The notes under the pieces were generated by a model, which saw nothing but the letters and a program-made list of their open reading frames with translations, had not been told where the DNA came from and ran no database searches. From contig MGTV01000010.1 in NCBI GenBank assembly GCA_001799635.1, positions 108,228 through 172,227 on the forward strand: 64,000 bases of DNA. Direction: 5' to 3'. The translations under genes were made by a program, and so were the position numbers. Positions 55,569 through 64,000 of the stretch are shown piece after piece. This DNA is from Elusimicrobia bacterium GWA2_62_23. Lineage in GTDB: Bacteria > Elusimicrobiota > Elusimicrobia > Elusimicrobiales > UBA9959. How positions within the stretch are numbered: position 1 is the stretch's first letter; the number at the start of each line of letters is the position of its first letter.

Positions 55569-57272
55569 ATGGGGGCCATCCCGTCCCGCCTGCGGCCCGG
55601 TTTCGGGCTGGTGGAGGCCATGATGGCCGTCTTCGTGCTGTCCATCCTGGGCCTGAGCGTGGCCTACATGTACCAGTACCTCGCGGTGGTTTCGGTGAAG
55701 ACCCGCGAGAACGTCTATACTTCCCGCCTCTCCGCTGCCGTTTTCTCCAAATTCAAGACCGTCGAGTACTACTATCTATTCGATTACGATTCCTCGCTGC
55801 CGAATTACGGCCTGGCCGGCAATTACGGCCCGGTTTCTCTCCAGAAAGCCGCCTACCCTTACCTGGGGCTGCTCAACGAGGTTACGGCCCTGGCTTCCAG
55901 GTACTCCGTGGACCGGTGGACCCTGGAGACCAAGTTCAAGCTGCGAGACGTCTCCGACGCCAACGGCAACGGCCTCTTCAGCGACCTGCGCGATTTTACC
56001 GACGCCGACGGCGACCTGCGCGACGACTACGACGCCGGGGTGAGGTACTACAAGGCCAACGCCGACGCCGATTACTACGACACCTACGTTTCCACCTCGC
56101 TCAACAAGACCGCCAGCGAACTGCCAGACACCAACCTCAAGGAAGTGACGCTCAGGTTCTATAAGCGCGGCAAGATCATCCATACCCAGACCGACCTGAT
56201 CTCCCTGGAAATGCTGTCCGGCATAGAAAGCAAGTCGAGCGGCGCCGAGCTCAAGATGTTCGTTAACCAGCCGGCCAACGATACCTGCCTTTACGACCTG
56301 TCCCTGCCGGCCAGGCAGGCCGCCTTCGCCCTGGGGCTCTCCAAGGCGTATCCCGCCGAGGTGACCGCCTACCGGGCCGACAATTCCTCGTTCCTGCGCC
56401 TTTGGGGTGAGACCACGCCGCTCGCTACGGTCAAGTTCTACGTCAATTCCATGACCACGGTGCGCGACAGTATACCGGCCAACGCGTCCGGGACTTTTGA
56501 TTACCAGTCGCTGGCCGTCACCAACGCGCTCGCGGAGGGCGAGAACACCATCTACGCGCAGGCCACCAAGGACACCTACTATTCCCCGTTCGCCCCCCGG
56601 CGCGTGACCAGGGACCTGAACCCGCCCTCCATAAGCGCCGCCGCGCCGGCCGGGACGATAGGCGACCTGATGCCCTACGTAGGCGCGGTGCTCCTGGACG
56701 AGCCGGCGGCTTCCGGCACGCCTTGCGGCGTGTGCCAGGAAGTTATCACCCTGAAAGTGAACGGGGCCGAGGCCCCATACAACTATTCCCTTTCTGACGG
56801 GAAACTGTCCTGGGCGGACCCCGCAACCGGCCTGCCGCACAAGCTGGCCAACAACACGGCCTATACCGTTTATCTGGAAGGCGGGGACAACGCCTATTAC
56901 AAAGTGAATTCCACCTGGACCTTTACGGTCTCGGTGCCTGGCACGGACAACTCCAAGCCCACGGTGGCCAACAAGACGCCGTCGGGCGCCTCCGCGCCGG
57001 CCCTGCCCGAGATCTCCTGCCGGCTCTTCGATAACCAGTCCGGCATAGATCCGTACAGCATCACGCTGGCGGTAGACGGGGTGGTGGAGGTCTCTTCCAC
57101 CAATATCTCGGGTTTCTGGGACCCGGCCACGGGCACGGTGTCCTATACCCCGGCCCAGGCATTCTCTCCCGGTTCTTCCCATACCGTGGACGTGGCCGTG
57201 AGCCACTGGGCGGACGACCCGGCCGACAAGAAGACCCACGCCGAATCCTGGAACTTTACGGTGGAGAACTGA
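55569..57272 (+). CDS. Minor pseudopilin (PilV-like) with Ig-like domains
   Basis: A 567-residue protein with a type III (prepilin) signal: cleavage would be after the Gly of PGFGLVEAMMAVFVLSIL, leaving a methylatable N-terminus and Glu5-equivalent. The hydrophobic helix follows. Around residues 125-160 an Asp-rich stretch (DANGNG, DADGDLRDDYD) looks like calcium-binding loops. From about 230 there are three to four Ig/fibronectin-type repeats (NPPSISAAAP, SKPTVANKTPSGAS). Much longer than typical PilV, so it may be a tip adhesin. First of three pilin-type genes. Confidence 0.8.
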   Translation: MGAIPSRLRPGFGLVEAMMAVFVLSILGLSVAYMYQYLAVVSVKTRENVYTSRLSAAVFSKFKTVEYYYLFDYDSSLPNYGLAGNYGPVSLQKAAYPYLGLLNEVTALASRYSVDRWTLETKFKLRDVSDANGNGLFSDLRDFTDADGDLRDDYDAGVRYYKANADADYYDTYVSTSLNKTASELPDTNLKEVTLRFYKRGKIIHTQTDLISLEMLSGIESKSSGAELKMFVNQPANDTCLYDLSLPARQAAFALGLSKAYPAEVTAYRADNSSFLRLWGETTPLATVKFYVNSMTTVRDSIPANASGTFDYQSLAVTNALAEGENTIYAQATKDTYYSPFAPRRVTRDLNPPSISAAAPAGTIGDLMPYVGAVLLDEPAASGTPCGVCQEVITLKVNGAEAPYNYSLSDGKLSWADPATGLPHKLANNTAYTVYLEGGDNAYYKVNSTWTFTVSVPGTDNSKPTVANKTPSGASAPALPEISCRLFDNQSGIDPYSITLAVDGVVEVSSTNISGFWDPATGTVSYTPAQAFSPGSSHTVDVAVSHWADDPADKKTHAESWNFTVEN

Positions 57273-57273
57273 G

Positions 57274-58137
57274 ATGACCCTGATGCCGCTGAAGAACCGC
57301 CGGGCCCGGCGGGGAGTAACGCTTACCGAGCTGATGATCTATGCCGCGGTAGTGAGCATAGCCCTCGTGGCTTTCTCCAAGTACTTCTTCGGTTTCAGCC
57401 GGACGGCCAAGAGGGCGGATAATGAGATGAAGGGCTCGTTCGAGATGCGGCTGCTGCTGTCCCGCGCCGAGAGCGATCTCTACGAGGCCAACCAGGTAGA
57501 GGCCGTGAACGCCAGTTCCATAACCTTCCGCTGCGACGCCGTTAAGGCCCCCGGGTACCAGCTGGAGGGCGACTTCGACGCGGACGGGATCCCCAACATC
57601 AAGGATACGGACGACGACAACGACGCCAGCTCCAAGTTCTCCCTGCCGGCGGCCCAGCAGTGGCAGGCCGGCTACGACCTGGAGGACGACGACGACAATA
57701 ACGACGGCGCGCCCGACGTGCGCGTTTCCCTCTATTACGTCCCGGCGGAGAAAAAGGTTTACCGGGCGCTGTATCTCAACGGCGGCGCGCCGGAGGTGAA
57801 GGCGCTGGCCGTGAACGTGAGTTCCTTTTCGCTGACCTGCTACGGCTCCAAACGCGAGGACCTGGGCCGCAACATTGACCTGGGCCCGGACGGGGCGGCC
57901 GGCACCGGCGACGCCGGCGAGGAGGACGGGATCATTTCCGCCAGGGAAATAGACTGGACCCTGCCTCCGACCGGTCACGGCAACCGCAACGGACGGCTGG
58001 ACACCCCCGGGGAACTTAAATACGTCACCTCGGTCGCGGTCTACGCCGAGGCCGACGCCAACGGCGACGGGACCTCCGATTCGGCGCTGGGCACCGAGAT
58101 CATGCCCCCGCTGCTGGCCCTCAAGAGGAGGCGGTGA
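57274..58137 (+). CDS. Minor pseudopilin (PilW/PulJ-like)
   Basis: A 287-residue protein with a prepilin leader (MTLMPLKNRRARRG) and cleavage site RRG-VTLTELMIYAAVVSIAL. The globular part carries two Asp-rich loops, DFDADGIPNIKDTDDDND and DLEDDDDNNDGAPDV, and a third ADANGDGTSD near the C-terminus, all in the DxDxDG style of calcium-binding type 3 repeats. Starts 1 bp after the PilV-like gene. Part of a type IV pilus or type II secretion tip complex. Confidence 0.85.
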   Translation: MTLMPLKNRRARRGVTLTELMIYAAVVSIALVAFSKYFFGFSRTAKRADNEMKGSFEMRLLLSRAESDLYEANQVEAVNASSITFRCDAVKAPGYQLEGDFDADGIPNIKDTDDDNDASSKFSLPAAQQWQAGYDLEDDDDNNDGAPDVRVSLYYVPAEKKVYRALYLNGGAPEVKALAVNVSSFSLTCYGSKREDLGRNIDLGPDGAAGTGDAGEEDGIISAREIDWTLPPTGHGNRNGRLDTPGELKYVTSVAVYAEADANGDGTSDSALGTEIMPPLLALKRRR

Positions 58138-59420
58138 TGCCCGTGGAACGAAGAAGGGGCGCGGCCCTGGTGCTGGTCAACCTGATGGTCCTGGTCCTGG
58201 TGCCGCTGGTGCTCTATTTGCTGGTCAACACCGTGGCCTCGCTGAAGCACGCGTACAAGGAAAAGCAGCTGGGCATGTCCGGCGCGCTGGCCAACGCCGC
58301 CCTGGTGGACTTCATGCGCCAGTTCTCGCAGAACTACTACGAGGGGCATTATGACGCCGCTTCGCTGTCCCGGAACGAGCCCTTCTATTCCGCCGGCTTC
58401 TCCTCCGCCTCCACCGAAGCCGACCCGGCGGGACACCGCCTCTACATAGAGGCCGCCGGCAAGTACGGCAAAGACCCAGCCCACCCGCTGGCGGACAAGA
58501 CGCTGTATTCGGCCGTGCAGTTCCTGTCCGACCTGACTGACTACGGCACCATGATAAACGGCGCTTTCACCATAAGCGCCAGCAACATCACCTATTTCGG
58601 CAAGTGGTGGATAACCGGGAACCTTTCCATAACCGGCTCCAACGTGCGCTTTGCCGGCGGGCCGCTGATAGTGGGCGGCAACCTGAGCGTGACCGGCTCC
58701 AACGTCGCCGTGGACGGGGACGTCTACTACGCCGGGTCCGTTTCCGGCAGCCCCGCGGTGAACGGCACCAGTTATAATTTTTATCCTTCGGACATGGTCT
58801 ATCCCGCGCTGAAGGAGGACTATTACAAGGTCAACTACGCCTACAAGATAACCTCCGACAGGACCCTGCGTTTCAACGCTTACCCGTCCTCCGGCACCTT
58901 CTCCATAGTCGGTACCACCATCACGGTGCCGCTGCTGGATTCCGGGATGATAATCCTCGGTGAGAACGTTAACCTCTCAGTCTATGGCGCCGTCCGGGGG
59001 CGGGTGACCGTGGCCACCACTAATACCAGCGCCTCCAAGGGAGCTATTACCGTCGGCCTGTCCAATGCGGACGCGGACCTTGTGTACTACAACCCCCTTA
59101 CCGGCGGCACCACAACCTCCGCGCTCTATGGCAATTCCATCGCTCTGATCGCTTCCAACGGCATAGCCTTCCAGGGCAAGACCACCAATCCGGCTGCTGA
59201 CCTTACAGCCTGCGGCGTCTTCTTCAACAGGGGGAGCGGCAATATCAGCGCCACCGGTGGGAGTTCTAAAAAACTTTACGTTTACGGCACCCGCAATAAG
59301 CCGGTCACTCTCTCCGGCTTCGGCGGCGGCAACTCCATGTCTTACGACGTCTGGCTGAACGCGTCGCCGCCGCCCGGCCTGCCCGAGCGGCCGGTGCTCA
59401 TGACCTGGCACATGAGGTAA
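58137..59420 (+). CDS. PilX-like minor pilus protein with beta-helix region
   Basis: A 427-residue protein beginning RRRGAALVLVNLMVLVLVPLVLYLL, the hydrophobic N-terminus of PilX-type proteins without a Glu5. Residues about 140-200 and 260-400 have repeated short strands (ITGNLSITGSNVRFAGGPLIVGGNLSVTGSNV, of which GNLSxTGSNV recurs) that should form a beta helix, as in DUF7305-like domains. AGGAGG is 5 nt before the ATG at 58137, which overlaps the previous stop by one base (TGATG). Third gene of the pilin set. Confidence 0.75.
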   Translation: MPVERRRGAALVLVNLMVLVLVPLVLYLLVNTVASLKHAYKEKQLGMSGALANAALVDFMRQFSQNYYEGHYDAASLSRNEPFYSAGFSSASTEADPAGHRLYIEAAGKYGKDPAHPLADKTLYSAVQFLSDLTDYGTMINGAFTISASNITYFGKWWITGNLSITGSNVRFAGGPLIVGGNLSVTGSNVAVDGDVYYAGSVSGSPAVNGTSYNFYPSDMVYPALKEDYYKVNYAYKITSDRTLRFNAYPSSGTFSIVGTTITVPLLDSGMIILGENVNLSVYGAVRGRVTVATTNTSASKGAITVGLSNADADLVYYNPLTGGTTTSALYGNSIALIASNGIAFQGKTTNPAADLTACGVFFNRGSGNISATGGSSKKLYVYGTRNKPVTLSGFGGGNSMSYDVWLNASPPPGLPERPVLMTWHMR

Positions 59421-60668: not shown

Positions 60669-61520
60669 CTAAAAGTCACGAATTTTGACCACCTTGCACT
60701 CTACGCCAAAAAGAGCGGAATCCTTTTCTTTCCTGAAGGTGGCGTAGGTCTGGGCCGTAGAGACATTCAGCGATAACAGGGGGAAGCAATTGACAAGTTT
60801 CAACAGTGACGCGCGTATGATGCCGCTCCTTCTGAACATAAGCCGTCCGGAGGCTATCATTTCGTTCCTTATGGCGAGCAATCTCTTCGATATTTCTGCT
60901 GTGGAACTGTGGGGGGGCGGGTACTCTATCATGGCGCCGGCCATGGGGAATTTGTAAGCCCCCGTCTTAAGGCGCTTGATCAATTTCGCCTTGGCCAGTT
61001 CCCGCAGGGAATTGCCTGACTCGGTCAAGGATATTCCCAACGTCGCGGCCAGATCTTTTGCTTTCCAGGCCTCTTCGTCATTGCAGAGAGCCGTCCAGCA
61101 TAAAGCGTTGCTGCGATTCCTTGCTATGGCTCCCAATTGCTTGTGGCTGATATGGAAAGTCCTATCCATCAGCAGTTTATCGATAGCCTTGTGGAGCGGC
61201 GAGGCTACGGATTCTTCCGGACTTTTTATAAGGATAGGCGCCAGCAAAGTGCCAAAAGCCTCTTCCCCATACGCAGCCTTAAACCAGGCGGTAAGGAAAT
61301 TTATGCCGGAGGAGGTTCCCGGCATTATGTGGAGTGCGTACATATAAAGGGGCAAGTCTTTGAAGGGCGGCAGGAACTTGCCATGCTCTATATGAAGATA
61401 CATCCGGTACGAGGTTTTCAAGTACCCTTCTCCTCCGTTCTTATGAAAGAACTGATATGCGGTACTGAAACCGGCCTCTTCCCTGTGCTTCTTCAGGGTT
61501 TTGGCGAATAATAGTTTCAT
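60669..61520 (-). CDS. TIGR02147-like predicted regulatory protein
   Basis: A 283-residue protein. The N-terminus (LLFAKTLKKHREEAGFSTAYQFF) looks like an HTH/XRE-type helix set, and the middle has a winged-helix-like stretch (KDLAATLGISLTESGNSLRELAKAKLIKRL). Length and layout resemble the TIGR02147 family described from Fibrobacter and related bacteria, of unknown function; the match is by style only. GGAGGAATTC precedes the ATG. It is divergent from the large surface-protein gene, 244 bp away, which it may control. GC is lower than in the neighbours. Confidence 0.6.
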   Translation of the reverse strand: MKLLFAKTLKKHREEAGFSTAYQFFHKNGGEGYLKTSYRMYLHIEHGKFLPPFKDLPLYMYALHIMPGTSSGINFLTAWFKAAYGEEAFGTLLAPILIKSPEESVASPLHKAIDKLLMDRTFHISHKQLGAIARNRSNALCWTALCNDEEAWKAKDLAATLGISLTESGNSLRELAKAKLIKRLKTGAYKFPMAGAMIEYPPPHSSTAEISKRLLAIRNEMIASGRLMFRRSGIIRASLLKLVNCFPLLSLNVSTAQTYATFRKEKDSALFGVECKVVKIRDF

Positions 61521-61642
61521 GAATTCCTCCGAAACCAGAATTAAATCATATATGTTTGCCGGCGCAATAGTGAATAAAAAATCTCTAGTTGCGAGTGGTT
61601 AGCCAAGAGCAGTTGGTAAGCAATCTGGCTCTTTTATCTGGG

Positions 61643-61671
61643 CACATGGCCTCATGTGACGCGTAGCGCGT
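61643..61671. promoter_or_regulatory. Paired dyads in the divergent gap
   Basis: CACATG-GCCT-CATGTG (61643-61658) and ACGCG-TAG-CGCGT (61659-61671) abut each other and are followed by TATATTTTAAACTAT, a -10-like stretch for the plus-strand gene. Either dyad could be an operator. Confidence 0.45.
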
Positions 61672-61764
61672 ATATTTTAAACTATCCGAATATTAAAGCG
61701 AAGTTATGGCGAAGCAAGCCGCGGTGCGGCATGAACGCCGCTTCGGGAGATGCACAAAGGAAAC

Positions 61765-64000
61765 ATGAATTGCGAAGGCCTGTTCGCGGGTTTTGCGCGC
61801 GCCGCCCTTGTCTCGTGGCTGGCGGCGCTGCCATCCTTTGTTTCCGTTCTGAACGCCGCCGAATTCGAGGTGGTGGATAAGCTCACTGCGAACGGCTACA
61901 CGCTGTTCAGGTCTTCCGTAGAGGTTCGCGGCGTAGTTGGTGTTTCCACCGGCACGCCGCAGGCGGCGCTGGATATTGTTTCCACCGGCACCACCCACGC
62001 CGAGATGTCGCAGCTCTGGCGCGCCGGCGACGGGGTTATAAAAGGCTCCATGAGCGCCACCGGCTACCTGCAGGCCGTAAAATTCATCGGCGACGGCTCC
62101 GGGTTGACAGGTATTGCCGCCGGCGACAACCTGGGCAACCATATCGCCACCACCACGCTGAACATGGCGGCTTTCGATATAACCGGAGTTTCCACCATAA
62201 GCGCCAGCGGCATATACATAAGCAGTTACGGGGTCATGCAAACTACCGGGATCGGCCTGGGGAGCGTCGTCGGCAATGTGCGGGGCAAGGGGGCCGTGGA
62301 CCTGCAGCCCAGGCGCATAGCCGCGGCCCAGGTGGCCTCGGGGCAGTATTCGCTAATAGGCGGCGGCCAGGAGAACACGGCCGCCGGGACCAGCGCCGTG
62401 GTGGGCGGCGGAAAAAACAATACCACTTCGGATGATTACGCGGTGGTATCAGGGGGAAGAAACAACACCGCTTCAGTAGGGGACGCAACCGTGGGAGGCG
62501 GTGCCGATAATCTTGCCTCTGGTTACGGTTCCGTCATAGCCGGCGGCTGGGATAACATCTCCGCGGGGGATGCATCTGCGATTTCAGGGGGATGGAATAA
62601 TTCGGCGCCAGGATACTACTCCTCGGTCCCGGGTGGCCGGGGCAATATAGCCTCAGGGTTCTATTCTTGGGCTGGGGGATACAATTCAGTTTCGTCGGCC
62701 GACGGCGCATTTACCTGGTCAGATTCCGCCGGTTACGACACTCAAAATACTGTGGTTGACCGCACTATTTTCAAGAACCGGGGCGGGTTCCTGGTGACCG
62801 GGTCCACCAACCCGGCCATGACCGGTACGCTGGACCGCGGTGTGCTGATGGCAGGTAACGGCCTTGTGGGTATTTCCACCGGCGCGCCGTATGCCGCCTT
62901 GGACGTAGTATCCTCCGGCACCGCCTCCAATATCTACGCACAGATCTGGCGCAACGGTTCGGGCGTAGAAGTAGCCTCCATGACGTCGGAAGGTACGCTG
63001 TACGTAACCGCCATGGGCAAAGGCGACAACCTGGGTAACCATATCGCCACGCAGAACCTGGACCTGGCGCAATTCCCGGTCATAAATGTTTCTTCCCTCG
63101 CGATGGTCGGCGATGGGATACGGATAGCCACCTCGGTGTACGCTGGGGCTAGCGGCGTGTTTATTTCCACCTCGGGACAGATGATGACGCTCGGCCTCGG
63201 CAACGGCACGGCCTTGCCCAATGCCCGCGGCTTGGGGGCTATGGACTTCCAGACCTATAGGTACGCTTCCACTAATGTGGCCAGCGCCAGATATTCCGGG
63301 ATTTTTTCCGGAACCGGCAATACAGCATCAGGTTCGTGGGCTGTTGTTTTAGGCGGAGATTCAAATGTTGCCAGTGGCTATGAAGACGTGGTTGTGGGAG
63401 GTTCGTGGAACACGGCCAGCGGTGGTGATTCCGTTGTCTCTGGCGGGTATAACAATTCCGCCACCTCGGAAAATGCAGTGATCTCTGGCGGGAATGATAA
63501 CACAGCAAGCGGAAACAGTTCTGTCATTGCCGGCGGTTCGAACAATACTGCGGCTGGCACTTGGGCCTCGATAGGCGGCGGCGGCTACAATGATGCCAAC
63601 GCTTCCAATTCGACGGTCTCCGGAGGTTACGATAATCATGCCCTTGGAGATTATTCCTCCATCCCCGGAGGACGGGGGAACTCTCTGACGAACAGCTTTT
63701 CGTTCGCTGCCGGATATTATGCGCAATCCACCTCCTCGGGTACGTTCACCTGGGCAGATTCCCAAGGCACGGTTGTTCTGAATAACTTTATAGACCGTAC
63801 CGTATTCAAGAACCGCGGCGGGTTTAAGATCACCGCCCAGACCGGGGCAATTTCGGCGAACCTGGCCATGCTCGAAGTGGTTTCCACAGGCACGGCTTCC
63901 AACATTTACGCGCAGATCTGGCGCAATGGCGGCGGCGTGGTGGTGGCGAGCATGACTTCGGAAGGGAAGCTCTTTGCCGACGGTTCCGGTTTGACCGGGG
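61765..64000 (+). CDS. Modular beta-roll surface protein, C-terminus beyond window
   Basis: At least 745 codons with no stop to the window edge. A signal peptide (residues 1 to about 31, ...SFVSVLNAA) is followed by repeated modules of about 320 residues. Each has (i) D/E-(I/V)-V-S-(T/S)-G-T...Q-(L/I)-W-R, (ii) a GDGSGLTG or GDNLGNHIA turn as in phage tail fibres, (iii) a roll of 14-15-residue units such as NNTASGNSSVIAGGS, and (iv) a cap with DRT(I/V)FKNRGGF. Rolls lie at about 62330-62700 and 63270-63720. The units resemble YadA/Hep_Hag head repeats, so it is probably a trimeric or fibre-like adhesin. Start: ATG 61765 with AAAGG; ATG 61750 in frame is possible. Confidence 0.8.
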   Translation, partial: MNCEGLFAGFARAALVSWLAALPSFVSVLNAAEFEVVDKLTANGYTLFRSSVEVRGVVGVSTGTPQAALDIVSTGTTHAEMSQLWRAGDGVIKGSMSATGYLQAVKFIGDGSGLTGIAAGDNLGNHIATTTLNMAAFDITGVSTISASGIYISSYGVMQTTGIGLGSVVGNVRGKGAVDLQPRRIAAAQVASGQYSLIGGGQENTAAGTSAVVGGGKNNTTSDDYAVVSGGRNNTASVGDATVGGGADNLASGYGSVIAGGWDNISAGDASAISGGWNNSAPGYYSSVPGGRGNIASGFYSWAGGYNSVSSADGAFTWSDSAGYDTQNTVVDRTIFKNRGGFLVTGSTNPAMTGTLDRGVLMAGNGLVGISTGAPYAALDVVSSGTASNIYAQIWRNGSGVEVASMTSEGTLYVTAMGKGDNLGNHIATQNLDLAQFPVINVSSLAMVGDGIRIATSVYAGASGVFISTSGQMMTLGLGNGTALPNARGLGAMDFQTYRYASTNVASARYSGIFSGTGNTASGSWAVVLGGDSNVASGYEDVVVGGSWNTASGGDSVVSGGYNNSATSENAVISGGNDNTASGNSSVIAGGSNNTAAGTWASIGGGGYNDANASNSTVSGGYDNHALGDYSSIPGGRGNSLTNSFSFAAGYYAQSTSSGTFTWADSQGTVVLNNFIDRTVFKNRGGFKITAQTGAISANLAMLEVVSTGTASNIYAQIWRNGGGVVVASMTSEGKLFADGSGLTG

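Follow-up and report, generated by a model that had tools for sequence, protein, structure and literature searches.

A family of modular β-roll fibre genes with exchangeable C-terminal tips in Elusimicrobia, probably encoding three-stranded surface fibres

Fibres of the MAT superfamily sit on the surface of the predator Bdellovibrio bacteriovorus, where one of them binds prey glycans, and their tips adopt S74, TNF/C1q-like and C-type lectin folds (PMC10769870). Elusimicrobiota are noted for very large proteins (PMC11573180). We analyzed a stretch of 64,000 nucleotides (the window) from Elusimicrobia bacterium GWA2_62_23, at the end of which lies the first half of a gene whose product is a long, probably three-stranded, surface fibre. 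The family to which this gene belongs shares with the MAT superfamily about 10–20 paralogs per genome, a signal peptide, a β-rich fibre body and, at the level of the family, a common body with exchanged S74, TNF/C1q-like and lectin-type C-terminal tips. It differs in several respects: PMC10769870 makes no mention of rolls of the UspA1/YadA type combined with connector and cap modules, MAT proteins carry a conserved β-rich domain of ~130 aa after the signal peptide where the window gene has ~25 aa, and the bearer belongs to another phylum with no evidence of predation. A subset of paralogs (YQGRL type) has a longer N-domain than the window gene. By its overall design, the family may be regarded as a variant of the mosaic trimeric adhesin design; we do not claim membership of the MAT superfamily proper.

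The fibre gene is a single open frame on the + strand, running from the ATG at 61765 (or 61750), with AAAGGA just 5′ of the 61765 start, to the last base, 64000, and encoding at least 745 aa. The first-pass annotation placed its end outside the window; the end is indeed missing, but the contig itself (MGTV01000010.1, 172,227 bases) also stops at window base 64000. A search across the genome for a second copy of the last 22 bases found none, so no continuing contig was found. Because the contig end cuts the gene, its C-terminus is absent from the assembly and relatives stand in for it. The protein begins with a putative signal peptide, MNCEGLFAGFARAALVSWLAALPSFVSVLNA (61765–61857, +), read by eye from the sequence and ending VLNA/AEF, and most paralogs have similar n and h regions. 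A short conserved N-terminal segment follows (EFEVVDKLTANGYTL..SSVEVRG, 61858–61917, +), which is 62–66% identical to two paralogs from the same genome; about 25 aa separate the putative signal peptide from the first connector. Pfam gave a single match for this protein, to LbR_Ice_bind (1.4e-8, over the gathering score), and searches of PHROGs and NCBIfam returned no match.

The window gene comprises two full modules and the beginning of a third, each ordered as a VSTG..QIWR connector, GDNLGNHIA, a β-roll of 14–16-residue turns and a DRTxFKNRGGF cap. Module 1 consists of the connector GVSTG..ALDIV..QLWR with GDGSGLTG (62089–62112) and GDNLGNHIA (62122–62148) (together 61918–62187, +), a β-roll of at least seven turns of 14–16 residues (62326–62700, +) and the cap DRTIFKNRGGF (62758–62790, +). 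Module 2 comprises the connector GISTG..ALDVV..QIWR with GDNLGNHIA (62859–63048, +), a β-roll of at least eight turns, which carries the LbR_Ice_bind and UspA1 head matches (63280–63714, +), and the cap DRTVFKNRGGF (63793–63825, +). Module 3 starts with LEVVSTG..QIWR..ADGSGLTG and is ended by the contig end (63862–64000, +). The modular repeat described by the first-pass annotation is confirmed: landmark motifs return every 900–1035 nt, with spacings of 930 nt for the VSTG connector (61929, 62859), 972 nt for QIWR (62902, 63874), 900 nt for GDNLGNHIA (62122, 63022) and 1035 nt for the cap (62758, 63793), and roll self-identity at lag 15 (or 30) is 0.34–0.37, far above the shuffled maximum of 0.17 ± 0.015 (2000 shuffles each). 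Its module order needs one refinement: GDGSGLTG stands ahead of GDNLGNHIA in module 1 only. Modules 1 and 2 share 43% protein identity (E = 5e-85), and their alignment contains two roll gaps, each worth one 15-residue turn, indicating that the turn is the structural unit.

The likeness of the rolls to YadA heads, which the first-pass annotation had suggested, proved well founded. The roll of the window gene (type A, see below) matches the UspA1 head (3pr7) with E = 3.7e-20 as a single sequence and with E = 6e-47 over 128 residues as a profile of five sequences; the corresponding value for the Lolium ice-binding protein (3ult) is 1.5e-6. At the level of sequence, then, the rolls and the trimeric head of UspA1 are homologues. 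AlphaFold2 modelled the isolated roll as a regular β-solenoid with a pLDDT of about 90. In a longer construct, predicted as a monomer, the roll was again the confident part and the linkers and connectors fell below 50, as would be expected, though this is not proof, if the linkers need partners. A Foldseek search with the roll model retrieved only generic solenoids (LpxD, GlmU, HK620 tailspike), and UspA1 was absent among the candidates; the sequence match, not fold comparison, therefore carries the UspA1 claim. A structure search with the long-module model (pLDDT 46) was discarded as meaningless.

The same genome contains nine further complete genes of the family (664–2865 aa) on contigs C8, C2, C42, C27 and C31. 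In a collection with one genome per species, all 32 genomes of the genus have relatives with significant matches, as do three of the five others from the family, and the 24 genomes of the sister family have none. The named relatives are Elusimicrobia MAGs, an affiliation that puts the organism in Elusimicrobiota. From 54 loci we extracted 67 family frames, in which three roll types alternate: type A, with the GG turn and 15-residue spacing (69 rolls, 4–28 turns), type B, with 17-residue spacing (59 rolls), and type C, with 14-residue spacing (10 rolls). A cap lies within 90 residues after 47 of the 69 type A rolls. In a Verrucomicrobiia MAG (L021), the same roll is joined to a WADS..F..RASGG collar that runs directly into an S74-like SDRNAKNNF motif, so the roll–cap pair exists outside Elusimicrobiota.

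Repetition at two scales had been taken to suggest rapid length variation, a proposal that the data do not support. The fibre gene contains no DNA tandem repeat at a TRF score of at least 30, its module copies match at the DNA level only in short blocks of 74–86% identity, and the best paralogous DNA is 68–83% identical for most matches. The lack of tandem repeats together with the short, diverged blocks indicates that duplication took place long ago. Window module 2 and a module of L018, the closest pair between species, are 73% identical and align with no unit gap along the turns they share, while modules further apart differ by entire turns. Roll length thus appears, from these alignments, to change over long times, and nothing shows rapid change.

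Fifty-nine of the family frames reach a stop codon (58 distinct, as L060 and L061 are one gene), and their complete C-termini sort into 12 recurrent classes, with 11 singletons left over. Four relatives from the genus that consist of the same modules terminate in S74, with the motif SDRRLK, SDRRMK or SDARLK in three and SSRRYK in the fourth. Six members end in a C1q/TNF-like tip (profile matches to adiponectin, 1.1e-12, and C1q, 8.6e-12), the singleton tip of L088 matches Pfam C1q (8.1e-13) and the tip of L068 matches Pfam Lcl_C (1.2e-12), whereas for the VTIQAA class, with eight members, sequence searches gave no relative in the PDB. The nine complete paralogs of the window organism carry six tip classes, none of them S74, and a search of its whole genome for S74 found none. 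The first-pass annotation had linked the gene to tail-fibre-type proteins that often end in S74. The link is borne out by the tail-fibre-like linkers, the four S74-bearing relatives and a single cyanophage tail-fibre gene whose roll is similar, but S74 is only one among many tips and is missing from this genome. A type 9 sorting domain, which that annotation had named as evidence against its reading, was not found in any family member or tip scanned with Pfam. In 34 of 47 cases the best-matching body carries a tip of another class; in the remaining 13, against 4.1 expected by chance, the two share a tip class, which indicates that tips have often been exchanged among bodies, though not at random. 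A diversity-generating retroelement was considered as a source of tip variation and rejected, as no reverse transcriptase was found in the window organism's genome or on the listed fibre contigs. Directly after two fibre genes of the same genome lies a short separate gene with a strong Lcl_C match (L016:5643–6368, −; 3.5e-33).

On the basis of this MAT-like design (signal peptide, β fibre, S74/TNF/C1q/lectin-type tips and paralogs), we propose an adhesin repertoire. We consider it likely that the window gene encodes a secreted modular fibre, most likely a homotrimer, and that the roughly ten genes with different tips act as a repertoire of adhesins. In such a fibre, UspA1/YadA-type β-rolls and phage-fibre-like connector and cap segments would follow one another in turn, leading to a separate, exchangeable binding or assembly tip; the N-terminal end would be held at the cell with the tip pointing outward, as in Bdellovibrio MAT fibres. 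Some of the tips belong to folds known to trimerise, and from homology to trimeric heads and tips we infer trimerisation of the whole; export, orientation and adhesion are likewise predicted.

Several other readings share part of this evidence. Since the rolls are those of UspA1/YadA heads by sequence, the gene might encode a trimeric autotransporter adhesin (type Vc) whose C-terminal YadA-type anchor lies beyond the contig end. Yet no genus genome searched (that of the window organism and 22 others) has a YadA_anchor match over the cut-off, with a positive E. coli control, and the 59 complete relatives end in tips, not anchors. The absence of the anchor from the genus implies that these fibres are not trimeric autotransporters, from which they also differ in having several rolls per protein between fibre connectors and other C-termini; we regard this as the least credible of the alternatives. 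An ice-binding or ice-recrystallisation-inhibiting surface protein, laying flat roll faces on ice, is scarcely easier to accept. The roll repeat is similar to that of the Lolium perenne protein, and both LbR_Ice_bind and 3ult are matched, but the UspA1 match is far stronger, elsewhere in the family its place is taken by two roll types (17- and 14-residue units) whose side chains differ from those of this roll, and ice binding has no need for exchangeable lectin-like tips. The Lolium protein, moreover, is a single small plant protein with neither modules nor tips.

Phage fibres commonly contain GDGSGLT and S74 modules, and the connector motifs, the S74 endings with SDxxxK in some members and the roll match to one cyanophage tail-fibre gene (E = 4e-9) would all suit a prophage or tailocin tail fibre instead of a cellular surface protein. 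Against this, N-termini are signal-peptide-like throughout the family, about ten dispersed chromosomal copies occur per genome, most members lack S74, and the genes around it in the window are of pilin-like, TPR and housekeeping kinds; no relative was found in IMG/VR contigs, and 50,697 phage records yielded just one. A phage origin of this kind is accordingly very unlikely. The long repetitive β architecture and the many paralogs would also fit a structural matrix or S-layer-like fibre without a specific ligand, but the tips include C1q/TNF and Lcl_C, which are known binding folds, and we hold this explanation to be improbable. We therefore retain the secreted, probably trimeric adhesin fibre as the preferred interpretation.

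Upstream of the fibre gene lies a conserved promoter-like element (61608–61684, +), with GTAAGCAATCTGGC..GGGCACATGGCCTCATG at 61640–61656 followed by a TA-rich −10-like stretch. Its consensus is about CTCCTAAGC.AAA..GG..N14..TGGGNCTNNNGCCTCATG, with the −10-like box about 20 nt further. Of 57 fibres, 10 have the string GCCTCATG upstream, as do 14 of 57 regulators, compared with 0.0135 expected per 700 nt. The core GGGN6GCCTCATG is present at 11 genomic sites and the reversed pattern at two. Signal-peptide-type genes follow nine of these 11 sites, a response-regulator gene adjoining the L015 fibre follows a tenth, and one lacks such a gene. The core with the upstream AAGC..AAA and the −10-like box was also seen in L151–L161 of the same genome and in L113, L137 and L143. 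Two other identities for the element were rejected: a GEMM-like riboswitch, suggested by eye, had no such Rfam match, and the spacing does not fit a sigma-54 promoter. Divergently oriented from the fibre gene is a regulator-like gene of 283 aa (60669–61520, −), whose matches to winged-helix and DUF4423 domains are weak. It belongs to a large family found across the genus, with over 100 matches in 30 genomes and as many as 19 in a single genome. Its members are usually divergent from exported-protein genes; in the fetched loci, about nine lie opposite a fibre gene and many opposite genes encoding other exported proteins. It is conceivable, though doubtful, that these form a surface-display regulon, in which tip-swapped fibres and exported proteins would share an activator-type element, many with their own divergent regulator, and would be switched individually to the target.

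A UPF0164/PorV-like outer-membrane barrel gene lies immediately upstream of nine of the 20 fibres with the YQGRL N-domain, and of L068, but of none of the 28 fibres with the window's N-terminal types. Examples are found at L014:9198–10289, L055:4220–5743, L062:4558–5490, L066:4042–5463, L075:3668–4642 and L079:12569–13543. The barrel is a possible export or anchoring partner for the YQGRL subset only. A search for SprA of type 9 secretion gave no match, nor did its controls, which makes it uninformative. A neighboring kelch protein has a sub-threshold match to the type 9 sorting domain Por_Secre_tail. Very large kelch, fn3 and TPR proteins adjoin fibre genes at L055:14444–19057, L053:15269–19999 and ~15 other loci. 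In the window, a run of prepilin-like genes (55569–59420; N_methyl motifs, PilV/PilW/PilX-like) lies just upstream of the fibre region.

If this interpretation is correct, the mosaic-trimer strategy, which the literature we searched describes for Bdellovibrio alone, would extend to a mostly uncultured phylum, in which heads of the UspA1 type serve as interchangeable modules of the shaft. The repertoire of tips would then provide direct candidates for learning which targets these cells bind.
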